Below, piece by piece: positions 11,906 through 23,761 of a stretch of DNA of 37,525 nucleotides. The notes below the pieces were generated by a model that was not told the origin of the DNA, made no database searches, and was given only the letters and a program-made list of their open reading frames with translations. The stretch is from an uncultured Mycoplasmatota bacterium (GTDB taxonomy: Bacteria > Bacillota_I > Bacilli_A > RF39 > UBA660), in NCBI GenBank assembly GCA_947643405.1, contig CANRVY010000016.1, forward strand, positions 1-37,525. The letters are read 5' to 3'. Numbering within the stretch: position 1 is the stretch's first letter; every line of letters starts with the position of its first letter. Position numbers and translations under genes: made by a program.

Positions 11906-12690
11906 TTAAGGAATTCTAAGTGTTTGACCTACTCTTAAATCATTAGAAGTAAGACCATTCAATTCTCTTAATTTAGAAACAGTTGTATCAAATTCATTCG
12001 CAATTTTCCACAAACTATCCCCATTTTTTACTGTATAAGTTCTAGAAGTACCACTTTCACTACTTGGCACTTTTAAAACTTGACCAATTCTTAATATATC
12101 GCTTGTTAAATTGTTCAATCTTCTTAATGTATCAACCGTTGTATTATAAGTTCTTGCAATAGACCATAAACTATCTCCATTTTTCACTGTATATGTATTA
12201 TCAGAAGTAATGGCTCCGCCATTTTCAGATGGAATTTTTAAAGTTTGACCTACTTGCAAATTATCTCCAGTTAAACCGTTAACACTTTTTAATTCATTCA
12301 CTGTAATGCCATATTGATTCGCTATTTTCCACAAGCTATCTCCATTTTTTACTGTATAAGTATTGCTGTTATCATTTCCTGGAATCGTAAGTACTTGCCC
12401 AACTTGTAGATTATCATTTGTTAAATTATTTGCAGATTTTAAAGCATTAATTGTTGTTCCAAATTTATTGGCAATTTTCCACAAACTATCCCCATTTTGC
12501 ACAGTGTATGTATTTCCTGTTGATGGAGTCTCTGGGGTACTAGTAGTATTTGGGATTGTTAATATCTGACCAATTCTTAAAACATCACTGGTAAGGTTAT
12601 TTGCAGCTCTAATGGCAGCTGGCGTTGTTCCAAATTGATTCGCTATTTTCCACAAACTATCTCCACTTTTTACTGTGTAGGTATTACTTC
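11906..12690 (-). repeat. Five tandem LysM-coding repeats
   Basis: The 3' half of the amidase gene consists of five diverged direct repeats of roughly 150-165 nt. The block encoding GDSLWKIAN is the most conserved. Such a tract can gain or lose units by recombination. Confidence 0.75.
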
Positions 12691-13276
12691 CACTTCCTAG
12701 CCCATAAGTTTCTATGATTCCATCGATTACTGCATCTACATATTTTTTATAGTTTTGATTGACTCGATTAATATCATTCGCATTATCAATAAATCCATAC
12801 TCTACAATCACAGGAGTTGTATTTGCTGTATCTCTTAACATGAAATAATAATCTTTTGAGGGATTACTTGGTAATCTTCTCTGGTAATACTTTCTAGTAA
12901 TTTGTCCTGCATCTCCAATATTTTCTAAAATATTACGCGCTAATGTATCATTATTACGTAAAGCATAAATTACCTCTGCTCCTTCAGCTCCTGTTTGTTC
13001 ACTACCTGCTGCATTAATATGATTGGAAATAACCAATACATCTGGCGTATTTCCATATGCATTTTTAACTCTTGTTACTCTTTCACTTGGTGACAAAGTT
13101 TCGTCTGTTGCTCTTGTCAAAGTCACAGGAATTCCTAGTTTTTTTAATTCATCATACATGTATTGAGAAATTTTCAAATTTAAATCTTTCTCTTGGAATC
13201 CATTTCCAACAGCACCTGGATCACTTCCCCCATGTCCTGGATCTATTACTATACCTTTAAGGTTTGTATTATTCAT
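11906..13276 (-). CDS. N-acetylmuramoyl-L-alanine amidase with five LysM repeats
   Basis: 456 residues. An Amidase_3 domain (1-192) begins almost at the first residue with IVIDPGHGG; zinc ligands are His15, Glu29 and His86 (SNHINAA), and Glu159 is catalytic. Five LysM modules of about 45 residues follow (from about 199 to 456), each starting TYTV-(K/Q)-GDSLW and ending with GQ.L.IP, joined by short Ser/Thr/Gly linkers. LysM binds GlcNAc in peptidoglycan and the amidase releases stem peptides. No signal peptide precedes the catalytic domain, unlike most secreted autolysins. Start supported by AGAGGTG 6 nt before ATG. Confidence 0.93.
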   Translation of the reverse strand: MNNTNLKGIVIDPGHGGSDPGAVGNGFQEKDLNLKISQYMYDELKKLGIPVTLTRATDETLSPSERVTRVKNAYGNTPDVLVISNHINAAGSEQTGAEGAEVIYALRNNDTLARNILENIGDAGQITRKYYQRRLPSNPSKDYYFMLRDTANTTPVIVEYGFIDNANDINRVNQNYKKYVDAVIDGIIETYGLGSGSNTYTVKSGDSLWKIANQFGTTPAAIRAANNLTSDVLRIGQILTIPNTTSTPETPSTGNTYTVQNGDSLWKIANKFGTTINALKSANNLTNDNLQVGQVLTIPGNDNSNTYTVKNGDSLWKIANQYGITVNELKSVNGLTGDNLQVGQTLKIPSENGGAITSDNTYTVKNGDSLWSIARTYNTTVDTLRRLNNLTSDILRIGQVLKVPSSESGTSRTYTVKNGDSLWKIANEFDTTVSKLRELNGLTSNDLRVGQTLRIP

Positions 13277-14539: not shown

Positions 14540-16042
14540 TTAATTTCCTATATCTCTTTTTGTATAAATTATATAACTCATTCCACAACAAGCAATGATT
14601 GTTAAAATAGAAATCAATATTCCATAAGAAGCAGAAGTTGTTCCAATAGACTGCGCTAATAAATAATAGGAATGATTTCTAAGAATCAAGCCTAATATAA
14701 AATATGGAAATGGTGTATAAATTAAAAATCCAAGTTTAAATGTCACAATTAAAAACCACATAAATTGCGATACTAATAACAAAATAATGCTAAAGCCTAT
14801 TGTTACTGTTTTACTAAGTGTCACCACAGATATAAAACAAAAACAACTTATAAAACTAATCATTGGAATACTACAGAGTAGTATTTCTTTTAATAAATAG
14901 AATAAATAATTTACTTCTGCTACTTGATCTCCTTCTACAATTAACTTAGCAGTCAATAATTCACCAAATCCATATTTGATACCTGCATAAAATAATAAAA
15001 TTACAAAAGCTAAAAACCATATCATAAACATGTCTAAGATGAGATAAACAAATTTACCAAACAATATTTTCCACCTCTTATAAGGTGTTGTAAAAAGCAT
15101 CTTTTCTGTTTTATGAATATGTTCATTCACAATTACACCACCACTTGTGAAAATTACAATTAAAAGAACTAATAATGATAAAAGAACAATTTTATTCGTA
15201 ACCGTTTTGGCAGTTGGATAAACAAGATAACTATCTACTGTTCCCTCTGGAAAAGAAAAATCATGCTTTTTATCATTCCAAAAACTGTAATGAAGTATTA
15301 AGTCTGCTTTCCTGTCTACTTCCTTTATTGCAGCAGTATAATATTCTCCATTGATTCCTATTCCAACATGCATCTCTAGTTGATTCAAAGATAAACTATC
15401 AAACATATTCTCTATTTTTTTATCTACTAAAAATTGATACTCACCATCTACATCAAAATTTTTATCATGTTTTATTTGATACTCCAAATATTTATAATAT
15501 TGGTTTTGTTTTAGAAAAGCACGATAGTTAGTTGCTTGTTCTTTTAAGTTTTCTATTTCTCTTACTAATTCCTCCTTTGTTTTTCCATAATACTCTCTAA
15601 CAGTTCCTTCATAAAAATCGAACTGATGAGCATCAGATACTCCTATATCTGTAAAAAAAGAATTTCCATAGTTTTCTACCATTTGATTTATAATAAATAT
15701 TTTGTCTTCTATTGTCTCAATTTGAAATAATAAATAATCTTTCCAACTATTACTATAAATCTTTTCATTTGCAAACTCTTTTAATATTTTTAATTTTGTT
15801 TCATTTCTATAAGTTTCATACTCATTTAAAAAAGGTGAATGATATGTGTCAAGTTCATGCTCCAAAAATTTTGTATATTCTTCTATTTCATTTTGAATAT
15901 TATAAAGTCTTGGCTTACTTAGCTTTGCTTCTAGTTCCATCATACCAATAATTGTTGCTAATAAAGTTATAAGTACAATATAACTTTTTTTTACACTATA
16001 ATTTTTTATAAATTCGGCTTTTATCAAATTTACAAATTTCAT
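14540..16042 (-). CDS. ABC-2 type transporter permease
   Basis: 500 residues. One transmembrane helix near the N-terminus (about 20-38) is followed by a large extracytoplasmic region with coiled-coil character (about 40-275), then five or six helices in the C-terminal half. This is the ABC-2 topology seen in antibiotic-peptide or lipid exporters. The start overlaps the stop of the XRE-ATPase gene by 4 nt, so the two form a transporter. Substrate unknown; self-protection against, or export of, the product of the neighbouring peptide-modification operon is possible but not shown. Confidence 0.85.
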   Translation of the reverse strand: MKFVNLIKAEFIKNYSVKKSYIVLITLLATIIGMMELEAKLSKPRLYNIQNEIEEYTKFLEHELDTYHSPFLNEYETYRNETKLKILKEFANEKIYSNSWKDYLLFQIETIEDKIFIINQMVENYGNSFFTDIGVSDAHQFDFYEGTVREYYGKTKEELVREIENLKEQATNYRAFLKQNQYYKYLEYQIKHDKNFDVDGEYQFLVDKKIENMFDSLSLNQLEMHVGIGINGEYYTAAIKEVDRKADLILHYSFWNDKKHDFSFPEGTVDSYLVYPTAKTVTNKIVLLSLLVLLIVIFTSGGVIVNEHIHKTEKMLFTTPYKRWKILFGKFVYLILDMFMIWFLAFVILLFYAGIKYGFGELLTAKLIVEGDQVAEVNYLFYLLKEILLCSIPMISFISCFCFISVVTLSKTVTIGFSIILLLVSQFMWFLIVTFKLGFLIYTPFPYFILGLILRNHSYYLLAQSIGTTSASYGILISILTIIACCGMSYIIYTKRDIGN

Positions 16043-17016
16043 ACGTCACCTCCAATTTGATTTTTCGTTCCACTCGTAATTTTTAAAAATTCTTCTTCTA
16101 AGGAATGCTCTCTACTTTCTATTTCATCTAATTCAAAAATATCTATTAAATATCCATTATCTAGTATCATGATCTTATTACAAACCATTTCTATTTCAGA
16201 CAAAATATGGCTACTAATCAAAACTGAAACCCCCATTGTTTCACAGGCTTTTAAAATAATTTCTCTAAGTTCTTTCATGCCTAAAGGATCTAATCCATTT
16301 GTTGGTTCATCTAATATTAAAAGTTCTGGCTTTTTAATAAGAGCAAGTGCAAATGCTAAACGTTGCTTCATTCCAAGCGAATAATGCTTTACTTTATCCT
16401 GAAGACGATTATTTAATTTTACCATTTTAAGAATATTCTTGACATATTTCATATCAGTGATTCCATTTAACAAACAAGTAATTCTAACATTTTGATAAGC
16501 TGTCAAATGTTCATATAAATTTGGACTTTCTACAATAGAAGCAACTTTTTCCATTGCTTTCTCAAACTCTTTTTTGATATCGAAATTACAAATTGAAATA
16601 GTTCCGTTTGAAGCTTTATAAAGACCTAAAATTGTTTTAATCAGTGTTGTTTTTCCTGCTCCATTTGGGCCTATTAAGCCTACTATTTCCCCTTTATAAA
16701 TGGTTAGACTTAAATTGTGAATAATCTCTTTTGAACCAAACTTTTTACTCACATTTTGAATTTCTAATACTGGTTTCTGATTTTCTTTTTTTACTTTTTT
16801 CTTCCTTTTTCTTTCTCCATTTAATAGTTCTTTAATAGTGACTCCTAGTATTTCAGAAAGAGGTCCCAAATAATAAATATCTGGTGCATTAATTCCTCGT
16901 TCCCATTTTGAAACTGAATTATCAGTAATTCCTAATTTATCACCAATATCTTTTTGAGTGAAACCTTTTTCTTTTCTCAGTTCACTCATAAAATTCCCCA
17001 TCTTTATCTGATCCAT
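16039..17016 (-). CDS. XRE-type HTH fused to an ABC transporter ATPase
   Basis: 325 residues with two joined modules. Residues about 8-60 are a Cro/C1 (XRE) helix-turn-helix (KGFTQKDIGDKLGITDNSVSKWERG). After a very basic linker (KRKKKVKK) an ABC ATPase follows with Walker A GPNGAGKTT (about 116-124), signature YSLGMKQRLA, Walker B LLILDEPTNGLD and a switch His (SSHIL). ATG at 17016 is chosen because AGGAGA lies 6 nt upstream; the ATG pair at 17040 overlaps a TATGAT -10-like box. The gene is coupled to the permease. A DNA-binding ATPase could repress its own operon and respond to transport state; this is inference. Confidence 0.88.
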   Translation of the reverse strand: MDQIKMGNFMSELRKEKGFTQKDIGDKLGITDNSVSKWERGINAPDIYYLGPLSEILGVTIKELLNGERKRKKKVKKENQKPVLEIQNVSKKFGSKEIIHNLSLTIYKGEIVGLIGPNGAGKTTLIKTILGLYKASNGTISICNFDIKKEFEKAMEKVASIVESPNLYEHLTAYQNVRITCLLNGITDMKYVKNILKMVKLNNRLQDKVKHYSLGMKQRLAFALALIKKPELLILDEPTNGLDPLGMKELREIILKACETMGVSVLISSHILSEIEMVCNKIMILDNGYLIDIFELDEIESREHSLEEEFLKITSGTKNQIGGDV

Positions 17017-17055
17017 ATTATCTCTCCTTGCTTCCATCATAGCACAAATTTCCTC

Positions 17056-17083
17056 AAAAAAAACTGACTTATTCCGTCAGTTT
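17056..17083 (-). terminator. Terminator of the peptide-modification operon
   Basis: Perfect 8-bp arms AAACTGAC/GTCAGTTT (17076-17083 and 17061-17068) and T8. The TAA stop (17069-17071) of the methyltransferase gene lies in the loop. It is the only terminator seen between 17.07 and 22.86 kb. Confidence 0.87.
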
Positions 17084-17749
17084 ATATTCTAGTATTAAAA
17101 TGTGATGATTTACTTTTTCAGTTCTAATTTGACGACTAATTTGTTCTCCATAAATTTCATCAAATACAGTTCTCGCTTCTTCCAAACTAGAAAACCAGAA
17201 ATCCGTTTCTAATCTTTGACTGATTTGGAAACCATGTTTTATCAACCAATTATTATAATCTTTAGTTCTTTTGATATGACCTCTTAGTTTTTCAAATTCT
17301 CCTGTACTATCATTTTCAATTAAATAAATCGTTCCATCTGTTTTTAAAACTCTTTTTAATTCTTGAATTACTTTTTCTCTTTTTTCTTCTAAGATAACGG
17401 TTCCAAGCACCCAAGCAGAAACAATAAAATCAAAAGAATTATCTGAAAAATTTAATTTTTCTAAATCGCCTACTTGTAAAATAGAATTGCTTTTATTCGT
17501 CTTAGTTTTTGCTTTTTTGATTTGCTCTTCTGATAAATCAATTCCTATATATGTATTAGATAGTTCCTCTAATAAAGGTAAAAATTTTCCACTTCCACAT
17601 CCAGCATCCAATATTTTTTCACCTTTGATGTTTTTTTTTAAAAAAGTTTCTACTTTTTTCGGATAATCCTCTGCCCTACTAAATATCTCATAAACTTTCT
17701 GTTTTTCATAATAAGCTTTTGATTTACTATTTAACCCACTGCTTTCCAT
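17069..17749 (-). CDS. Class I SAM-dependent methyltransferase (UbiE/Methyltransf_11 type)
   Basis: 226 residues. A Rossmann methyltransferase with motif I ILDAGCGSGKFL, the acidic strand-2 end YIGIDLS, motif LNFSDNSFDFIVSAWVLGTV, and LKRVLKTDGTIYLIE after it. The target is not readable from sequence. ATG 17749 is preferred over ATG 17755, since GAGAGG lies 6 nt before it. The gene overlaps the end of the ATP-grasp gene by 23 nt and is the last of a seven-gene operon, so it probably methylates the same substrate that the ligase and radical SAM enzymes act on. Confidence 0.86.
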   Translation of the reverse strand: MESSGLNSKSKAYYEKQKVYEIFSRAEDYPKKVETFLKKNIKGEKILDAGCGSGKFLPLLEELSNTYIGIDLSEEQIKKAKTKTNKSNSILQVGDLEKLNFSDNSFDFIVSAWVLGTVILEEKREKVIQELKRVLKTDGTIYLIENDSTGEFEKLRGHIKRTKDYNNWLIKHGFQISQRLETDFWFSSLEEARTVFDEIYGEQISRQIRTEKVNHHILILEYKLTE

Positions 17750-18758
17750 ATACATCCTCTCTTTCTGCGGTTTCTGGAAACATCAAATCTACAATATAAC
17801 TTGCTACATTCTGACTTTTACCGAGGGCAGGTCTATGATGCATTTGTAAGCCTGGTACAGTATTGACTTCAATAATTCTGTATGTATCATCATTTTGCTG
17901 TAAAGCGATGTCATGCGTCATAAAGTCTATTCCAACATAAGGTAATCCTGGAAAAGCAGAAAGCACTTTCTTTCCAATTTCAATGACACTTCTATCTGTT
18001 TCATCTGTTTTATCTACACAAACGCCTCCCATAGCAACATTAGAATTTCTTCTAACATAAACTTTTTTTCCTAATAACGGAACAAATTTTCTAGAGATTC
18101 CTTTTTCAGTCAAATAACGATCCATCTCATCATCTATTAAAATCTCACATAACGCATTTGTCCTTGGATGCATTCTTCTATGGTTTTCTATTCCAATTAA
18201 TTCTTCAATTGTATGAATTCCATCTCCAATGACATAAGCTGGATCTCTATTTAATACAGCATATTTTCCCGCTGTTGTTACAAATACTCGATATTCTTTA
18301 GCATCAAAAAATTCTTCTATTAAAATTGGGGCTTCTGTTCCATATTTTTCTTCTAAAAATCCTAAAACTTTTTCGATATCTTCCAGTCTCTTTAAGTTTA
18401 AATAAACATCATAACCATGAGAACCATGTACAGGCTTTAATACAACTGGCCCATCTAGAATTTCAAAAGCTCTAATAATAGAAGCTTTTTCTTTTGCCTT
18501 AAAAACTTCCCCAATTGGTACTGAAATATGATTCTGTTCTAATATTTTTTTCGCAATTCCTTTATTCCCAGCAAGTACAGATACATGATAAGGGGTAATG
18601 GATGAATCTCGGTCATAAATTAATTCTTGATGTTCTTTGAACGTTGCTTTAATTAGTTCTAATTTTTCATCAATAACTTCAACATAAATTCCTCTTTTAA
18701 GTAATTCATAAATAAGTATCTTTTGATTGGTGTGCAAATTCTTAAAAACATTTTCCAT
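17727..18758 (-). CDS. ATP-grasp ligase, GshF/cyanophycin-synthetase-like
   Basis: 343 residues. The N-terminal 80 residues and ATP-grasp core resemble the C-terminal half of bifunctional glutathione synthetase GshF, but no glutamate-cysteine ligase half is present. Visible elements are VLKPVHGSHG (ATP-binding Lys108 and glycine loop), LIEEFF (148-150), PAYVIGDGIHTIEELI, VRRNSNVAMGG, and metal ligands Asp278 (GIDFM) and Glu297/Asn299 (IIEVN). ATP-grasp enzymes activate a carboxylate as acyl phosphate and join it to an amine, hydroxyl or thiol. It begins 3 nt after the charged small-protein gene, so that protein is the likely substrate, although free amino acids or thiols are alternatives. Confidence 0.87.
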   Translation of the reverse strand: MENVFKNLHTNQKILIYELLKRGIYVEVIDEKLELIKATFKEHQELIYDRDSSITPYHVSVLAGNKGIAKKILEQNHISVPIGEVFKAKEKASIIRAFEILDGPVVLKPVHGSHGYDVYLNLKRLEDIEKVLGFLEEKYGTEAPILIEEFFDAKEYRVFVTTAGKYAVLNRDPAYVIGDGIHTIEELIGIENHRRMHPRTNALCEILIDDEMDRYLTEKGISRKFVPLLGKKVYVRRNSNVAMGGVCVDKTDETDRSVIEIGKKVLSAFPGLPYVGIDFMTHDIALQQNDDTYRIIEVNTVPGLQMHHRPALGKSQNVASYIVDLMFPETAEREDVYGKQWVK

Positions 18759-18761
18759 AAA

Positions 18762-19190
18762 CTACCATCTAGACTCTCCACGAGATTCTCCACAACTATA
18801 TCCCCATCCATCATAGGAATGATAGGTGCTTCTACTTTCACTACCTCTACTTTCTGAACTAAATCCAGAAGAAGTTCCACGTATTGGTTTTGAAACTTCT
18901 TGTTTTTTAGTTTTTACTAACTGCTTTGCTCTATTGAACGCCTTTTCGATCGCATCATTTTCTTTCTTTACTGCTTCCGCTTCTTTTTTTAATTCTTCTT
19001 GTCTTTGAACTTCTTCAGCTTCTTTTTTCAAACTTCTTAATTCTTGTAACATTTTTTGTCTACGACTTAACTCATCTGTCATAAATTGATTTTGTTTATT
19101 TGGATTTTCTGGAATTTGTTCTATTGCTTCAATCAATTTATCAATATCTTCTATACTATTAAATTTCAGACTTATAAAATCTGATTTCAT
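18762..19190 (-). CDS. Small charged protein with Ser/Glu/Arg/Gly tail, candidate modified peptide
   Basis: 142 residues, no recognised family. Residues 1-30 look like a small folded segment, 38-95 form a highly charged coiled coil (runs of Lys and Glu), and 103-142 are a low-complexity tail. The tail contains the repeats SESRG, SESRS, GESRG and ESRW around the aromatic piece YHSYDGWGYSCG and ends in Trp. It sits between a DUF3419-like transferase (4 nt after its stop) and an ATP-grasp gene (3 nt before its start). A leader-like front with a repetitive modifiable tail next to modifying enzymes fits a RiPP-type precursor or a protein scaffold. Function is unproven. Confidence 0.72.
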   Translation of the reverse strand: MKSDFISLKFNSIEDIDKLIEAIEQIPENPNKQNQFMTDELSRRQKMLQELRSLKKEAEEVQRQEELKKEAEAVKKENDAIEKAFNRAKQLVKTKKQEVSKPIRGTSSGFSSESRGSESRSTYHSYDGWGYSCGESRGESRW

Positions 19191-19194
19191 ATAA

Positions 19195-20085
19195 TCACTC
19201 CTCTATATATAAGATTTTATCTTGTTTCTTCTTTCCAATTACACTTGGAAATGTAATTTCTTTCACATTTGAAAATACACTTTTTACTTTTTCCATATCA
19301 TCTACAACACTTCTAATATTTCCTACATCATACTGATAAACAAAAAATAATTTTCCATTTTTTGATAGTTTTTTCTTTAGCGGATTTATAATCTCATCTT
19401 GATAATTTTCTAACAAATTTTTATTAAACATAGAACTTAAATAATCAGAAATATTAGATAGAAATATAAAATCATAGTGATTCCCACAATGATTCTTTAA
19501 ATCTAATAAGGAACTTTCTAAAAATGTAATCTGAACTCCTTTTATATTCTGTTTTAAACTTTGAAAAAAATTTTCATTTAAATAAAGATTGCTCATCAAT
19601 TTTTTTTCATTTGTATCATATAAATTATGAAATAATGGACTATTTCTAAGCACATTCCCATTATAATGAACCTCTTTATATAATTCTTTCCAAAAATTAG
19701 AAACTGTTTTATTTAAATATCTTGAAAGTTTTACATATAACTTGTAGTCCATTGCATGACTATTATTTTCTAACAAAAAATAATTTAAGAAGTCTTGATA
19801 AGATAACTCTTTTACAGCAGCTATTTTTAAATTCAAAAAATAATATGTGAAAACATTAATATCAAAAGTTTCTATATTTTTACTTCCTAACAATATTGCA
19901 TTTAAAACATGGTCTCCTGATCCACATACTGTCAATATTTTTTTATTTTGAAATTCAATCTTAGAATAATATCCAGCTACATTTTCTGTTGTAAAAGAAT
20001 ATAACTTAGAATAAGTACCATACTTTTCTTTTAAAGGGATACCATTTATTAATTCTTTTGCTTTTTTAATATGGATGTTTTCCAA
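19195..20085 (-). CDS. DUF3419/BtaA-like SAM-dependent transferase
   Basis: 296 residues. A Rossmann core with ILTVCGSGDHVLNAILLGS, ETFDINVFTYYFLNLKIAA and then SYQDFLNYF closely follows the pattern of DUF3419/BtaA proteins, which transfer the 3-amino-3-carboxypropyl group of SAM rather than methyl. A later strand YDFIFLSNISDYL and GKLFFVYQYD complete the fold. No ATG is available. TTG 20085 is chosen because GGTGA lies 5 nt upstream; GTG 20097 is the alternative. It overlaps the end of the upstream radical SAM gene. Whether it moves methyl or aminocarboxypropyl, and onto what, is open. Confidence 0.72.
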   Translation of the reverse strand: MENIHIKKAKELINGIPLKEKYGTYSKLYSFTTENVAGYYSKIEFQNKKILTVCGSGDHVLNAILLGSKNIETFDINVFTYYFLNLKIAAVKELSYQDFLNYFLLENNSHAMDYKLYVKLSRYLNKTVSNFWKELYKEVHYNGNVLRNSPLFHNLYDTNEKKLMSNLYLNENFFQSLKQNIKGVQITFLESSLLDLKNHCGNHYDFIFLSNISDYLSSMFNKNLLENYQDEIINPLKKKLSKNGKLFFVYQYDVGNIRSVVDDMEKVKSVFSNVKEITFPSVIGKKKQDKILYIEE

Positions 20086-20974
20086 TACATTCACCACATT
20101 TCTGTTTTTGTAAAAATTCTCTCCAATTAGAATCTTGAAATAATTCTTCTAGTGTATGATTTTTTAAAGTTCTCTTTGTCAAATAAGAAGAAGATTTTGT
20201 TACTAACCAACTACAAGGAGCAATATTTCCTTTATCATTAATATATATAAATTTGTTACCTGCTGGACAAGCTTCAATATGCTCATCAATTTTCTTGCTC
20301 CAATTATAATTAATTTTTATACTGTCTACATATTTCTTTTGATAAAATTCTATTTCTTCTTCTATTTCTTTTAATGATTTTGTGATAACAAAAGATTTAT
20401 CTCCATCCATTCTACCAACTGGTTCCATAACTGAAAAAATAATTTCTGATACTTCTAATTCTTTTGCTTTTTCAATAATCTTTAAAATTCTATCTTGATT
20501 GCCTTTATATAAAACAGTCCCAATTCGAATATATTGATTGCTTTCTTTTAAATTCTTAATTCCTTCTACTGTTCTATCATAAGTGTTTTTTCCTCTTACT
20601 TGCTCATGAATTTCTTTTATATCACCATCCAAACTGACATGAACCATTTCTAATGTTATATTTCTGAACTCTTTAGCTTTTTCTTTCGTTATTAAAGAGG
20701 CATTTGTAGAAACATCTACTTTCATTCCTAGAGCAACGGCATATTTTAAAAGTTCTATTAAATCATTTCTTATAAAAGGTTCTCCTCCTGTTATCTTTAA
20801 ATATTTAAAATCATGATTCCACAAATCATCAATCACTTTTTTGCACTCTTTTAGTGTTAGTTCACTCTTTTTTGAACCACATCCTGAACTAAAAATACAA
20901 TATTTACAAGCATAATTGCACCGATTTGTAATTTCCCATAATACCCTTCCACTATTTCTTGGAATTCGGAACAT
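20066..20974 (-). CDS. Radical SAM enzyme with SPASM/twitch C-terminus (peptide-maturase type)
   Basis: 302 residues. The cluster motif CNYACKYC (Cys19, Cys23, Cys26) follows VLWEITNR, and the SAM-binding GGEPF motif follows. The C-terminal part has Cys236, then a GNIAPCSW strand pair (Cys254), then Cys293 and Cys296 in CGEC, a twitch/SPASM arrangement for an auxiliary Fe-S cluster as in PqqE, AlbA or anSME-like enzymes that act on peptides. ATG 20974 is preferred (GGTGGAGAG upstream); upstream ATG 21004 is possible and would deepen the overlap with the kinase gene. It probably modifies a peptide in this operon. Confidence 0.86.
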   Translation of the reverse strand: MFRIPRNSGRVLWEITNRCNYACKYCIFSSGCGSKKSELTLKECKKVIDDLWNHDFKYLKITGGEPFIRNDLIELLKYAVALGMKVDVSTNASLITKEKAKEFRNITLEMVHVSLDGDIKEIHEQVRGKNTYDRTVEGIKNLKESNQYIRIGTVLYKGNQDRILKIIEKAKELEVSEIIFSVMEPVGRMDGDKSFVITKSLKEIEEEIEFYQKKYVDSIKINYNWSKKIDEHIEACPAGNKFIYINDKGNIAPCSWLVTKSSSYLTKRTLKNHTLEELFQDSNWREFLQKQKCGECIGKHPY

Positions 20975-21533
20975 ACATTGCACACTCTCCACCTTCTTCC
21001 TCATTTGTTATTTTAAAATATAAGAATGTTGGATTTTCTTCTTTGTATTGTTTTAAAATTTCATCTATATTTTCTTGTTCTTGTAACAGCATTCTATTTT
21101 TTATTTCATCTTCTCTTAAATCAATACCACTAACTCTTTTTAGTCTTGTTTTAGAACTTGCTTCTACAATAATGAGTGCATCTAAAAACGGTAATAAATG
21201 GTCTTGTATGAGAAGTGCCCATTCTATCAAAACATAATCATAAGGACATCGCTTTAATTCTCGAATTAAAAATTCATATAATATTTTTTTATATTTTGTC
21301 ATCGCTTCTGGATTTTTATAAATAATGTCATTTAGGTCTTTTCCAGTCCAATTACCTTTTAAATTTAAAATTGTTTCTAAACGATTTCGATATTTATAAT
21401 TACTTTTGATTAAATTTCTTCTAAACTTATCTACTTCTAAAAAATAGCAATTTTTTAATTTTTTTTGAATTTGATTTCCAATATAAGTTTTCCCAGCACC
21501 CATATAACCAGTAATTCCAATTATTTTACTCAT
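20952..21533 (-). CDS. P-loop kinase related to dephospho-CoA kinase
   Basis: 193 residues. Walker A GYMGAGKT (9-16), a DKFRRN substrate-side motif, VLIEWALL in place of the CoaE 'PLLFE' strand, then ALIIVEASSKTRLKR and an NRMLLQEQ helix: the overall CoaE/NMP-kinase plan with diverged substrate residues. ATG 21533 overlaps the stop of the B12-radical SAM gene; ATG 21548 is an alternative. A housekeeping CoaE would not be expected inside such an operon, so it may phosphorylate a pathway intermediate; this is inference. Confidence 0.75.
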   Translation of the reverse strand: MSKIIGITGYMGAGKTYIGNQIQKKLKNCYFLEVDKFRRNLIKSNYKYRNRLETILNLKGNWTGKDLNDIIYKNPEAMTKYKKILYEFLIRELKRCPYDYVLIEWALLIQDHLLPFLDALIIVEASSKTRLKRVSGIDLREDEIKNRMLLQEQENIDEILKQYKEENPTFLYFKITNEEEGGECAMYVPNSKK

Positions 21534-22860
21534 ACCAACACATCCCATACTTCATTGGAACCATAGATACAAATTTTTGATTTTGATTAAAATCATTATA
21601 AATTCTCCAATCCTGATCTTCTATAAAAACCAAATAATTTTGTTTTTCTAACTGGTGCAAAAATAACAAGATTTCCTTTTGATAGTACAAGTTCTTAGAA
21701 CCACTTGTACTATGAATATAACCACTTACTTGTTCTTTTGGATTTTCATATGTCACTGGCGTTCCTGGACGATATGCCAAATAATGAAGCCGTATTTCAT
21801 GTGGCAACAAATCTAAAATTAAATTTTTTGTCTGGTTAAAATCTTCTAATGTACATCCTGGATAATCTAAAATAAAACTTGTTCGAACACGAAAACCAAT
21901 TTCTTTCACCTCCTTTATTACTTGTCTTATGTAAGTAATGCTCATGGGCTTTCCCATCTTTTTTAAAATTTCTTCACTTCCAGATTCAATTCCAAAATGA
22001 ATCCAGCGAAATCCAACTTCATACATCAGTTTAAACAATTCTTTGTCATAATGAGCAATGCTTGATAAACATCCTAATAAAATAGATAGTTTTCTTTTTT
22101 TAATCTCTATACAAATATCTCTCATTCTTTCTTTAGAAATTGTCATATTATCATCTAAAAAGATAACTTTCTTCTTATGATATTGTGTAACTAAAATTTC
22201 TAATTCGTCCACTACATCTTTCACACTTCTACTTTGAAATTGGTGAAAAAAGTAGGGTGTACTACAATATTTGCACTTGCCATCACAACCTCTTGAAGTA
22301 ATCATACTAGCAGTATCCATATAATTATGAAAATCAATCATTGAATAATCTGGTATAGGTAAACTTTTATAATTTCCTTGGGTAAATTTTCTTTCTGTTT
22401 TAAATATACGATTATTTTCACAAATGACTAAATTAGGTATTTGCTTTAAAGTTTTTATATTAAAAATATTCTCTAATACAGGAATCAAAATTTCATCATA
22501 AATTCCACATATAATGATGCTTGCTCCTGCATTTATAAATCGCTCTGGAAAATAAGTAGGCGTTTTTCCAATTAATACAAACTTTTTTTCAGCCCCATAT
22601 TTTTTGATTAGCTCTAATAAATATTCAGCTGCTTCAGTTGTGTGAAGTGGAATTTGATAATCAATAAGAACAACAGCAATATCTATGTTTTGATAAATAT
22701 TATTTGGAATTTCTTTTACGTTTAAAGCGTCCATATCTAAAAATGTTGTTTTAAAATGTTTTTTTATTAAAGTAGCAACTTCTAAAACATCTAAAGGAGG
22801 AGCTAATAATGAACTATTTGTAAATGGTATATTGGGTGGATTAATAACTAAAACATTCAT
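21526..22860 (-). CDS. B12-binding-type radical SAM enzyme (class B / BchE-like)
   Basis: 444 residues. The N-terminal 140 residues resemble a cobalamin-binding domain (MNVLVINPPN, then IGKTPTYFPE), but the DxHxxG motif that supplies the cobalt-ligating His is not visible, so B12 may bind base-off without it or not at all. The radical SAM domain has SRGCDGKCKYC (Cys192, Cys196, Cys199), FLDDNMT and HFGIESGSEEILKKMGK. Such enzymes often methylate unactivated carbons or rearrange them. It is the first gene of the operon, with AGAAGG before ATG and a promoter upstream overlapping an inverted repeat. Confidence 0.87.
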   Translation of the reverse strand: MNVLVINPPNIPFTNSSLLAPPLDVLEVATLIKKHFKTTFLDMDALNVKEIPNNIYQNIDIAVVLIDYQIPLHTTEAAEYLLELIKKYGAEKKFVLIGKTPTYFPERFINAGASIIICGIYDEILIPVLENIFNIKTLKQIPNLVICENNRIFKTERKFTQGNYKSLPIPDYSMIDFHNYMDTASMITSRGCDGKCKYCSTPYFFHQFQSRSVKDVVDELEILVTQYHKKKVIFLDDNMTISKERMRDICIEIKKRKLSILLGCLSSIAHYDKELFKLMYEVGFRWIHFGIESGSEEILKKMGKPMSITYIRQVIKEVKEIGFRVRTSFILDYPGCTLEDFNQTKNLILDLLPHEIRLHYLAYRPGTPVTYENPKEQVSGYIHSTSGSKNLYYQKEILLFLHQLEKQNYLVFIEDQDWRIYNDFNQNQKFVSMVPMKYGMCWYE

Positions 22861-22883
22861 AAGATTTCCTTCTTTCTAAATTC

Positions 22884-22912
22884 ATTTTATTATTTGTAAC
22901 TTTATAAGTAAA
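22884..22912 (-). promoter_or_regulatory. Promoter of the seven-gene operon
   Basis: Minus strand -35 TTTACT (22912-22907), 17-nt spacer, -10 TAAAAT (22889-22884). The -35 lies inside one arm of the 22903-22950 inverted repeat. Confidence 0.6.
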
Positions 22913-22955: not shown

Positions 22956-22984
22956 TTGTTTTTATAATTGATTTGAGATAAAAT
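22956..22984 (+). promoter_or_regulatory. Promoter of the deoxyribosyltransferase-like gene
   Basis: Plus strand TTGTTT (22956-22961), 17-nt spacer, TAAAAT (22979-22984), then AGGAGG and ATG at 23003. Confidence 0.65.
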
Positions 22985-23002
22985 GTAAATAGGAGGAAAT
23001 CT

Positions 23003-23373
23003 ATGAAAATTTATATTGCACATTCAAAAAAATCCCTTATCAAAAGGAACTATATGAACCAATTATAAATAGTAATTTATATCAAAACCACACTTTTATT
23101 TTTCCACATCTTAAAACAGAAAAAAGTGAAAACACACGTGAATTTTATAAAACTTTAGATATTATTTTTGCTGAAGTTTCACTTGCTGGAACAGGTCTTG
23201 GCATTGAACTTGGTTGGGCATTTGATGATAATACACCTATTTATTGTTTTTATAAAAAAGGCTCTAAAATTGCGAATTCTTTACAATGTATAACTTCAAA
23301 CTTCTTTGAATATGAAACAGAAGAAGAAATGATAAAACTTATGGAAAATATATTAAATGAAATAGAACAATAA
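23003..23373 (+). pseudogene. Nucleoside 2-deoxyribosyltransferase-like gene, one-base frameshift
   Basis: Starts with a strong AGGAGG and MKIYIAHSK, then leaves frame in a run of seven A (about 23026-23032). One more A would restore the frame through IPYQKELYEP, FIFPHLKTEK and the signature TGLGIELGWAFDDNTPIYC to a natural TAA. Restored length is about 123 residues, as in small nucleoside 2-deoxyribosyltransferases, which exchange bases on deoxynucleosides; the Glu of GIELGWA is the expected nucleophile. A single homopolymer change may be true inactivation, slippage rescue, or an assembly error. It is divergent from the radical SAM operon. Confidence 0.78.
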
Positions 23374-23376
23374 ATT

Positions 23377-23398
23377 AAAAAAAAGAATATCCTTTTTT
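23377..23398 (+). terminator. Possible terminator after the deoxyribosyltransferase gene
   Basis: Weak all-A/T stem AAAAAAG/CTTTTTT with a 6-nt loop and the arm itself as T run, 4 nt after the stop codon. Confidence 0.4.
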
Positions 23399-23761
23399 GC
23401 TAGATACTCTTATAATATATTAAGTGTATAATAAATACCAATCTAATAGTTAGTTTTCCACTCTATTCTTCAGCTTTGAGAATTGAAAAGAGTAAATTTC
23501 TATGTTGCAAAACATTATAGATATTATATATTCACTTGGAATTAGTAGTTATATTTACTATTTGCGCAATACACCAATCAACAACGAAAGGTGTTTTTTG
23601 TTTAAAAAAATATTTAGAGACTACACCTCGTAAAAAGCATCAGCGTAAATCTCATTCTTATTATAGAATGAAATATCAGATATAAGTACTCTACTATATA
23701 CTTTTGTTTGAAAAATTATAAATTTATATCTTAAAATTCAATCCAATATTATAAAAAAATT
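23399..23761. other. Intergenic region, possible degraded coding remnant
   Basis: About 360 nt without a convincing gene. Two short overlapping plus-strand frames exist. One from ATG near 23502 encodes 34 residues and has no clear ribosome site. The other reads KYLETTPRKKHQRKSHSYYRMKYQ near 23610-23680 in split form and looks like the broken end of a basic protein. I cannot assign either. Confidence 0.35.

Follow-up and report, generated by a model that had tools for sequence, protein, structure and literature searches.

A seven-gene operon encoding a small protein with paired Glu-Ser-Arg motifs: a candidate RiPP-like pathway in uncultured Bacilli-like gut bacteria

Introduction

In graspetide loci, an ATP-grasp ligase is encoded beside a small multi-core protein, and some of these loci also contain a SPASM radical S-adenosylmethionine (SAM) enzyme and a UbiE-like methyltransferase (PMC8939145). 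A comparable arrangement is found in the seven-gene operon described here. It lies on the minus strand of the window, the whole stretch of DNA analysed, which is one entire contig of 37,525 bp (CANRVY010000016.1, assembly GCA_947643405.1; 28% G+C) and part of the 1.55-Mb genome of an uncultured Mycoplasmatota bacterium. The operon encodes six enzymes and a small protein with paired Glu-Ser-Arg (ESR) motifs, and is a candidate for a new class of pathway resembling those of ribosomally synthesised and post-translationally modified peptides (RiPPs). Unlike the graspetide enzymes, its ligase belongs to the cyanophycin synthetase/GshF group and not to the RimK/MvdC-type clade. Besides, a kinase, a cobalamin radical SAM enzyme and a DUF3419 enzyme are added, the putative core is ESR, and there is no peptidase/ATP-binding cassette (ABC) exporter.

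Several other described systems share single features with the operon. The SPASM/twitch maturases, such as PqqE, mycofactocin MftC and the sactipeptide/ranthipeptide enzymes, combine a radical SAM core and an auxiliary-cluster C-terminus and stand beside a small protein. However, the operon enzyme is fused to a kinase in four genomes, has no RiPP recognition element (RRE)/PqqD partner, and its putative core is ESR rather than Cys- or aromatic-based. In the betaine-lipid route of BtaA/BtaB and in diphthamide formation, aminocarboxypropyl transfer is followed by methylation and, for diphthamide, by ATP-dependent coupling of a carboxylate. The step order proposed for the operon parallels theirs, but the acceptor would be a peptide Ser, and the product of gene 4 is a diverged DUF3419 member of putative activity. 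Cyanophycin synthetase and GshF/GshAB are clearly homologous to the product of gene 6 over the ATP-grasp domain, whereas this 343-residue protein is devoid of a Mur-ligase or glutamate-cysteine ligase partner domain. In prokaryotic viperin-kinase pairs and fusions, a radical SAM enzyme is likewise tied to a nucleotide-type kinase; in contrast, gene 3 has an auxiliary-cluster domain, better SPASM-family matches and a different operon around it. The cobalamin radical SAM C/P-methyltransferases (PhpK, the methyl-coenzyme M reductase (MCR) glutamine C-methyltransferase and ApyD) are among the best matches of gene 1, from 1e-35 to 7e-27, but gene 1 falls well under every curated cut-off and has an invariant CWYE tail. 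A literature search for RiPP, radical SAM, ATP-grasp and aminocarboxypropyl together found no report, and one for 3-amino-3-carboxypropyl with ribosomally synthesised peptides found only a general SAM review. The literature found on DUF3419 concerns algae, plants or fungi.

Results

The order of the seven genes is B12-type radical SAM enzyme, P-loop kinase, SPASM/twitch radical SAM enzyme, DUF3419-like SAM transferase, small protein, cyanophycin-synthetase/GshF-like ATP-grasp ligase and methyltransferase. The original prediction, a short note made from the sequence of the window alone, had read this set as an unassigned RiPP-like pathway and proposed a search for the same gene order in other genomes. 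With an ATP-grasp profile, the operon was found in 8 of the 386 sampled genomes of one family of uncultured Bacilli-like gut bacteria, spread over six genera. A same-family relative is a Bacilli metagenome-assembled genome from goat rectum. Three carriers, the window genome (G000), G246 and G323, belong to one genus, and five other genera are represented by G190, G152, G271, G259 and G120; the operon is missing from two further genomes of the window's genus, G142 and G381. The gene order is identical in every copy, with the genes past the cut not visible in G120 and G259, where contig ends interrupt the operon. All of the eight operons contain the small protein, always between the DUF3419-like and ATP-grasp genes. 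Operons without it, which the note had named as evidence against its RiPP-like reading, were not encountered, and that reading is supported. The genes flanking the operon vary among genera. Therefore, the operon behaves as a self-contained cassette.

The small proteins share one conspicuous element. ESR is their most frequent tripeptide and is found in all eight, at three to nine motifs per protein. In total there are 38 ESR, compared with a mean of 2.1 and a maximum of 8 in 5000 shuffles, so the repetitive tail noticed in the window protein lies far above chance. The gaps between motifs were analysed with ESR and Glu-Ser-Asn (ESN) taken together. They are 1–4 residues long inside pairs and 9–30 residues long between pairs, and one gap of 162 residues occurs in G190 because the helix of the protein intervenes. 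Short and long gaps alternate at 25 of 26 places, and none of 20,000 shuffles of the gap order reached this value. It is this alternation, rather than the count of short gaps, that carries the weight. The Ser codons of ESR are drawn from both the AGY and the TCN sets, and no single synonymous change converts one set into the other. This favours selection at the level of the peptide over DNA repetition as the sole cause of the motif. Among the 910 distinct open reading frames (ORFs) in all fetched DNA, only the eight small proteins have at least three ESR or any ESR pair. ESR-like pairs outside the operon were also sought by a DNA scan of ten genomes with a 2-residue spacer, and the remaining matches were rejected as degenerate-code matches to other residues.

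The AlphaFold model of the window protein contains helices at residues 13–25 and 30–100 and a low-confidence, unstructured tail. The helical module is charged, and the ESR segment is rich in Gly, Ser and aromatic residues. The ratio of non-synonymous to synonymous substitution rates (dN/dS) is 0.20–0.30 for the whole gene, which indicates purifying selection, and 0.25–0.61 for the tail. The ESR segment is C-terminal to the helix in G000, G246 and G323, N-terminal to it in G271, G259, G152 and G120, and on both sides in G190. The small protein of G152 has a duplicated core unit, as multi-core precursors have. The paired ESR as the conserved part, the shift of the motif side relative to the helix and the kinase-SPASM fusion described below are features beyond the claims of the note. 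As a separate observation, several ESN replace ESR in the small protein of G152, and in the same genome a frame break (L034, 10994-12324) splits the B12-radical SAM gene, either by assembly error or by real loss.

The coordinates of the operon are collected in Table 1. The coupled seven-gene operon expected from the window was confirmed, with all seven ORFs consecutive between 22860 and 17069 of the minus strand. With the upstream-most start codons, the junctions are overlaps of 23, 53, 32 and 29 nt or else gaps of 4 and 3 nt. The single terminator of the note was also recovered as a terminator-like hairpin with a T-run. On the other hand, its single promoter gained no support: the candidate at 22912-22884 is a 9/12 match, and such promoter-like sites occur at chance level (64 seen, 61.5 expected). 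The Rfam search gave no matches in the window, so a ligand is not hinted at by any riboswitch match. The G+C content of the operon (27.7%) is near that of the remaining contig (28.3%).

Table 1. Features of the operon in the window (position 1 is the first letter of the contig; aa, amino acids).
Feature	Coordinates	Strand	Remarks
Gene 1: cobalamin-type radical SAM enzyme, 444 aa	21526..22860	-	CxxxCxxC at C192/C196/C199
Gene 2: CoaE-like P-loop kinase, 198 aa	20952..21548	-	Walker A GYMGAGKT; likely start 21533
Gene 3: radical SAM enzyme with twitch/SPASM-like C-terminus, 312 aa	20066..21004	-	CxxxCxxC at C29/C33/C36
Gene 4: DUF3419 (BtaA-family) SAM-dependent transferase, 300 aa	19195..20097	-	GTG start
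Gene 5: small protein, proposed precursor/substrate, 142 aa	18762..19190	-	
Helical module of small protein (proposed recognition), aa 13-100	18891..19154	-	AlphaFold, alignment, dN/dS about 0.2
Disordered tail of small protein, aa 101-142, two ESR pairs	18765..18890	-	
ESR codons of the window protein	18854-18846, 18839-18831, 18788-18780, 18776-18768	-	
Gene 6: stand-alone ATP-grasp ligase, cyanophycin synthetase/GshF group, 343 aa	17727..18758	-	
Gene 7: class I SAM methyltransferase, 228 aa	17069..17755	-	model match 1e-24
Intrinsic-terminator-like hairpin, then T-run	17061..17083	-	at very end of last gene

The family assignments made for the genes from the sequence hold in Pfam/NCBIfam-type model matches. 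For gene 1, the best NCBIfam models are the PhpK P-methyltransferase (1e-35) and the MCR Gln C-methyltransferase (5e-31). B12-radical SAM families match it strongly, with all models below their curated cut-offs. Its N-terminus is B12-binding-like, by a weak PF02310 match (E=1.1e-3; 19.2 bits against a cut-off of 32.1). Its C-terminus, KYGMCWYE, is invariant among five aligned copies; this tail overlaps the kinase start region, and the overlap may explain part of the conservation. Gene 2 matches a CoaE-like kinase model at 2e-10. Gene 3 has a radical SAM match of 9e-28, and its match to the Pfam SPASM model is sub-threshold (17.2 vs 21.5 bits). Alongside its CxxxCxxC motif, the C-terminal C246, C264 and C306 are invariant, which argues for an auxiliary-cluster domain of the twitch/SPASM type. 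The matches of gene 3 are 3.5e-37 for the heme b synthase AhbD, 4e-24 for prokaryotic viperin (pVip) and 4e-11 for a viperin-kinase fusion model. Assignment as a prokaryotic viperin was rejected, since viperin is not the best model and the auxiliary cysteines are present. The kinase and the SPASM enzyme form a single fused ORF in G190, G152 and G271. In G259, the ORF truncated by the contig end starts within the kinase part, so the fusion is found there too and in four genomes in total.

Gene 4 matches Pfam DUF3419 with 59.5 bits, above the cut-off of 28.2 bits (E=4e-16). The residues of its SAM site, S60/D62, D79/N81 and K91, are kept and are common to the wider DUF3419 group. A sequence search of the PDB with this protein gave no matches. 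It has many paralogues in the family, and its three best matches beyond the window sit in the same operon. In a quick tree of 85, the DUF3419 proteins of the operons cluster together (SH-aLRT 90), which is consistent with a single origin. Elsewhere, a tandem array of more than 20 divergent DUF3419-like genes was noticed in G160:C7 (L061/L062, JAFSEY010000011.1, about 34-57 kb), where apparent genes for glyceraldehyde-3-phosphate dehydrogenase and phosphoglycerate kinase flank it, and G020:C25 (L063) has a tandem array of at least 12. These arrays look like a diversifying gene family. The matches of gene 6 are 1.7e-65 for cyanophycin synthetase, 4.5e-58 for GshAB and 7.5e-11 for the RimK family. 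It corresponds to the ATP-grasp part only, with 221 bits compared with the 850 bits needed for a full-length multidomain cyanophycin synthetase/GshF enzyme.

Outside the family, the ATP-grasp profile matched only domains of larger, GshF-sized proteins, and the operon was not found in the genomes sampled. The B12-radical SAM profile matched only the window over 346 genomes of the class. Viral contigs gave no matches to the operon, and a phage collection gave only ATP-grasp matches at 28–30% identity. In plasmids, there were only a B12-radical SAM gene (27% identical, in another context) and short weak DUF3419 matches.

Discussion

The enzymes of the operon probably modify the ESR pairs of the small protein, which would be a multi-core, RiPP-like substrate, and we put the probability of this reading at about 0.6. 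The presence of the protein in every copy, its recognisable helix and a motif that is repeated regardless of position are as expected of a multi-core substrate. The ESR residues would be the modified sites and a pair would form one unit, such as a cross-link or a site with two arms. We infer the actual modification of the peptide, and its manner, from sequence.

Several points weigh against this reading. When the flanks were compared between genera, no conserved RRE-like gene, leader peptidase or transporter/exporter was found to accompany the operon. Some RiPPs rely on unlinked genes, and missing leader-removal and export genes do not decide the class. Because an exporter or protease is not conserved with the operon, the product may stay intracellular or use generic export. 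The count of short gaps, taken alone, is only moderately unusual (21, with a random mean of 15.1 and a maximum of 22). Family membership is the whole basis for regarding gene 4 as a putative aminocarboxypropyl transferase, and the fold search fails to separate it from methyltransferases, as its predicted model was about as similar to spermine synthase as to ordinary methyltransferases. Lastly, a scaffold with docking sites in a disordered tail would give rise to the same sequence pattern of repeated short motifs.

As such a scaffold, the small protein would oligomerise through its helix and recruit, through its ESR pairs, enzymes that make a small molecule. The helix is coiled-coil-like in the AlphaFold model, repetition in a disordered segment that may lie on either side is typical of docking motifs, and a conserved protease or exporter is absent around the operon, all of which agree with this role. 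However, the enzyme set is constant while the number of motifs varies from 3 to 9, and a SPASM-type radical SAM enzyme, a cobalamin radical SAM enzyme near peptide-modifying families and an ATP-grasp ligase are a typical peptide-modification set. We consider a scaffold unlikely.

It is quite improbable that the operon is a small-molecule pathway, for example to a metallophore, a thiol or a nucleotide-like metabolite, with the small protein as an accessory and the kinase and radical SAM enzyme acting as in kinase-linked viperins. The matches of gene 3 to the viperin models (4e-24 and 4e-11) and the small-molecule substrates of CoaE-like kinases point in this direction, and aminocarboxypropyl transfer is known in small-molecule routes (PMC10491745). 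On the other hand, gene 3 scores higher with other radical SAM families (3.5e-37), its three C-terminal cysteines mark an auxiliary-cluster domain, and the conserved repeat-bearing protein would be left unexplained. A known thiol or lipid route had been named at the outset as the alternative; none of the library models places the enzymes as a set in a thiol, lipid or defence pathway, and defence-system models gave only generic matches with the operon proteins. A graspetide-like pathway, in which the ATP-grasp ligase joins Glu and Ser of paired ESR by ester or amide cross-links and the other enzymes are secondary, is very doubtful: Glu and Ser are indeed acid and hydroxyl partners joinable by graspetide-type ligases, and both multi-core precursors and neighbouring SPASM enzymes or methyltransferases are seen in graspetide loci (PMC8939145), but gene 6 matches cyanophycin synthetase and GshAB far better than RimK-type models (7.5e-11), the C39 peptidase/ABC pair is not conserved, and the Arg of ESR is unexplained.

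With the small protein as a multi-core substrate, a sequence of steps can be proposed. The enzymes would dock on the charged helix as the recognition element and modify each ESR pair, the core, in turn. The known member of the DUF3419 family is BtaA, which transfers an aminocarboxypropyl group. BtaA is among the aminocarboxypropyl transferases listed in PMC10491745. The DUF3419 enzyme may use SAM to add a 3-amino-3-carboxypropyl group to the ESR Ser, giving a pendant alpha-amino acid. The methyltransferase would methylate this pendant group, and the GshF-like ATP-grasp ligase would couple its carboxylate to an amine. Relatives of this ligase act on alpha-carboxylates of small peptides. Since the pendant alpha-amino acid would offer a carboxylate of the kind activated by GshF-type ligases, a chemical link between the DUF3419 and ATP-grasp enzymes is proposed. 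The kinase and the SPASM radical SAM enzyme would act consecutively on the same motif, and their fusion suggests that the two steps use one intermediate or consecutive ones. The cobalamin radical SAM enzyme would C-methylate or rearrange an sp3 carbon. The specific chemistry, in which the ATP-grasp ligase lengthens an aminocarboxypropyl side chain, is offered only tentatively. Equally speculative is the complete proposal of a new RiPP class, in which ESR pairs would be given a SAM-derived aminocarboxypropyl group, extended by the GshF-like ligase and reworked by the kinase-radical SAM fusion, with recognition independent of the side on which the core lies.

If true, the operon would represent a peptide-modification class in which a kinase-radical SAM fusion, a DUF3419 transferase and a GshF-type ligase act on a multi-core substrate, a combination of enzymes for which no description was found in the literature searched. 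It would also be the first peptide role for the DUF3419 family. For engineering, it would provide a simple tripeptide tag and a compact seven-gene system that could be reconstituted stepwise.

Additional observations

Directly after the operon, an ABC transporter pair lies at 14540-17040 (minus strand), and its ATPase has an N-terminal helix-turn-helix (XRE-like) domain. The pair is not beside the operon in G246 and is therefore probably unrelated to it. Divergent from the operon, a frame starting MKIYIAHSKK at 22984-23400 (plus strand) is intact in G246 (130 aa) and G323 (123 aa), but the ORFs listed for the window do not include an intact copy. At 11906-13276 (minus strand), an N-acetylmuramoyl-L-alanine amidase-like protein is encoded, with five tandem LysM-like repeats recognised by eye only.

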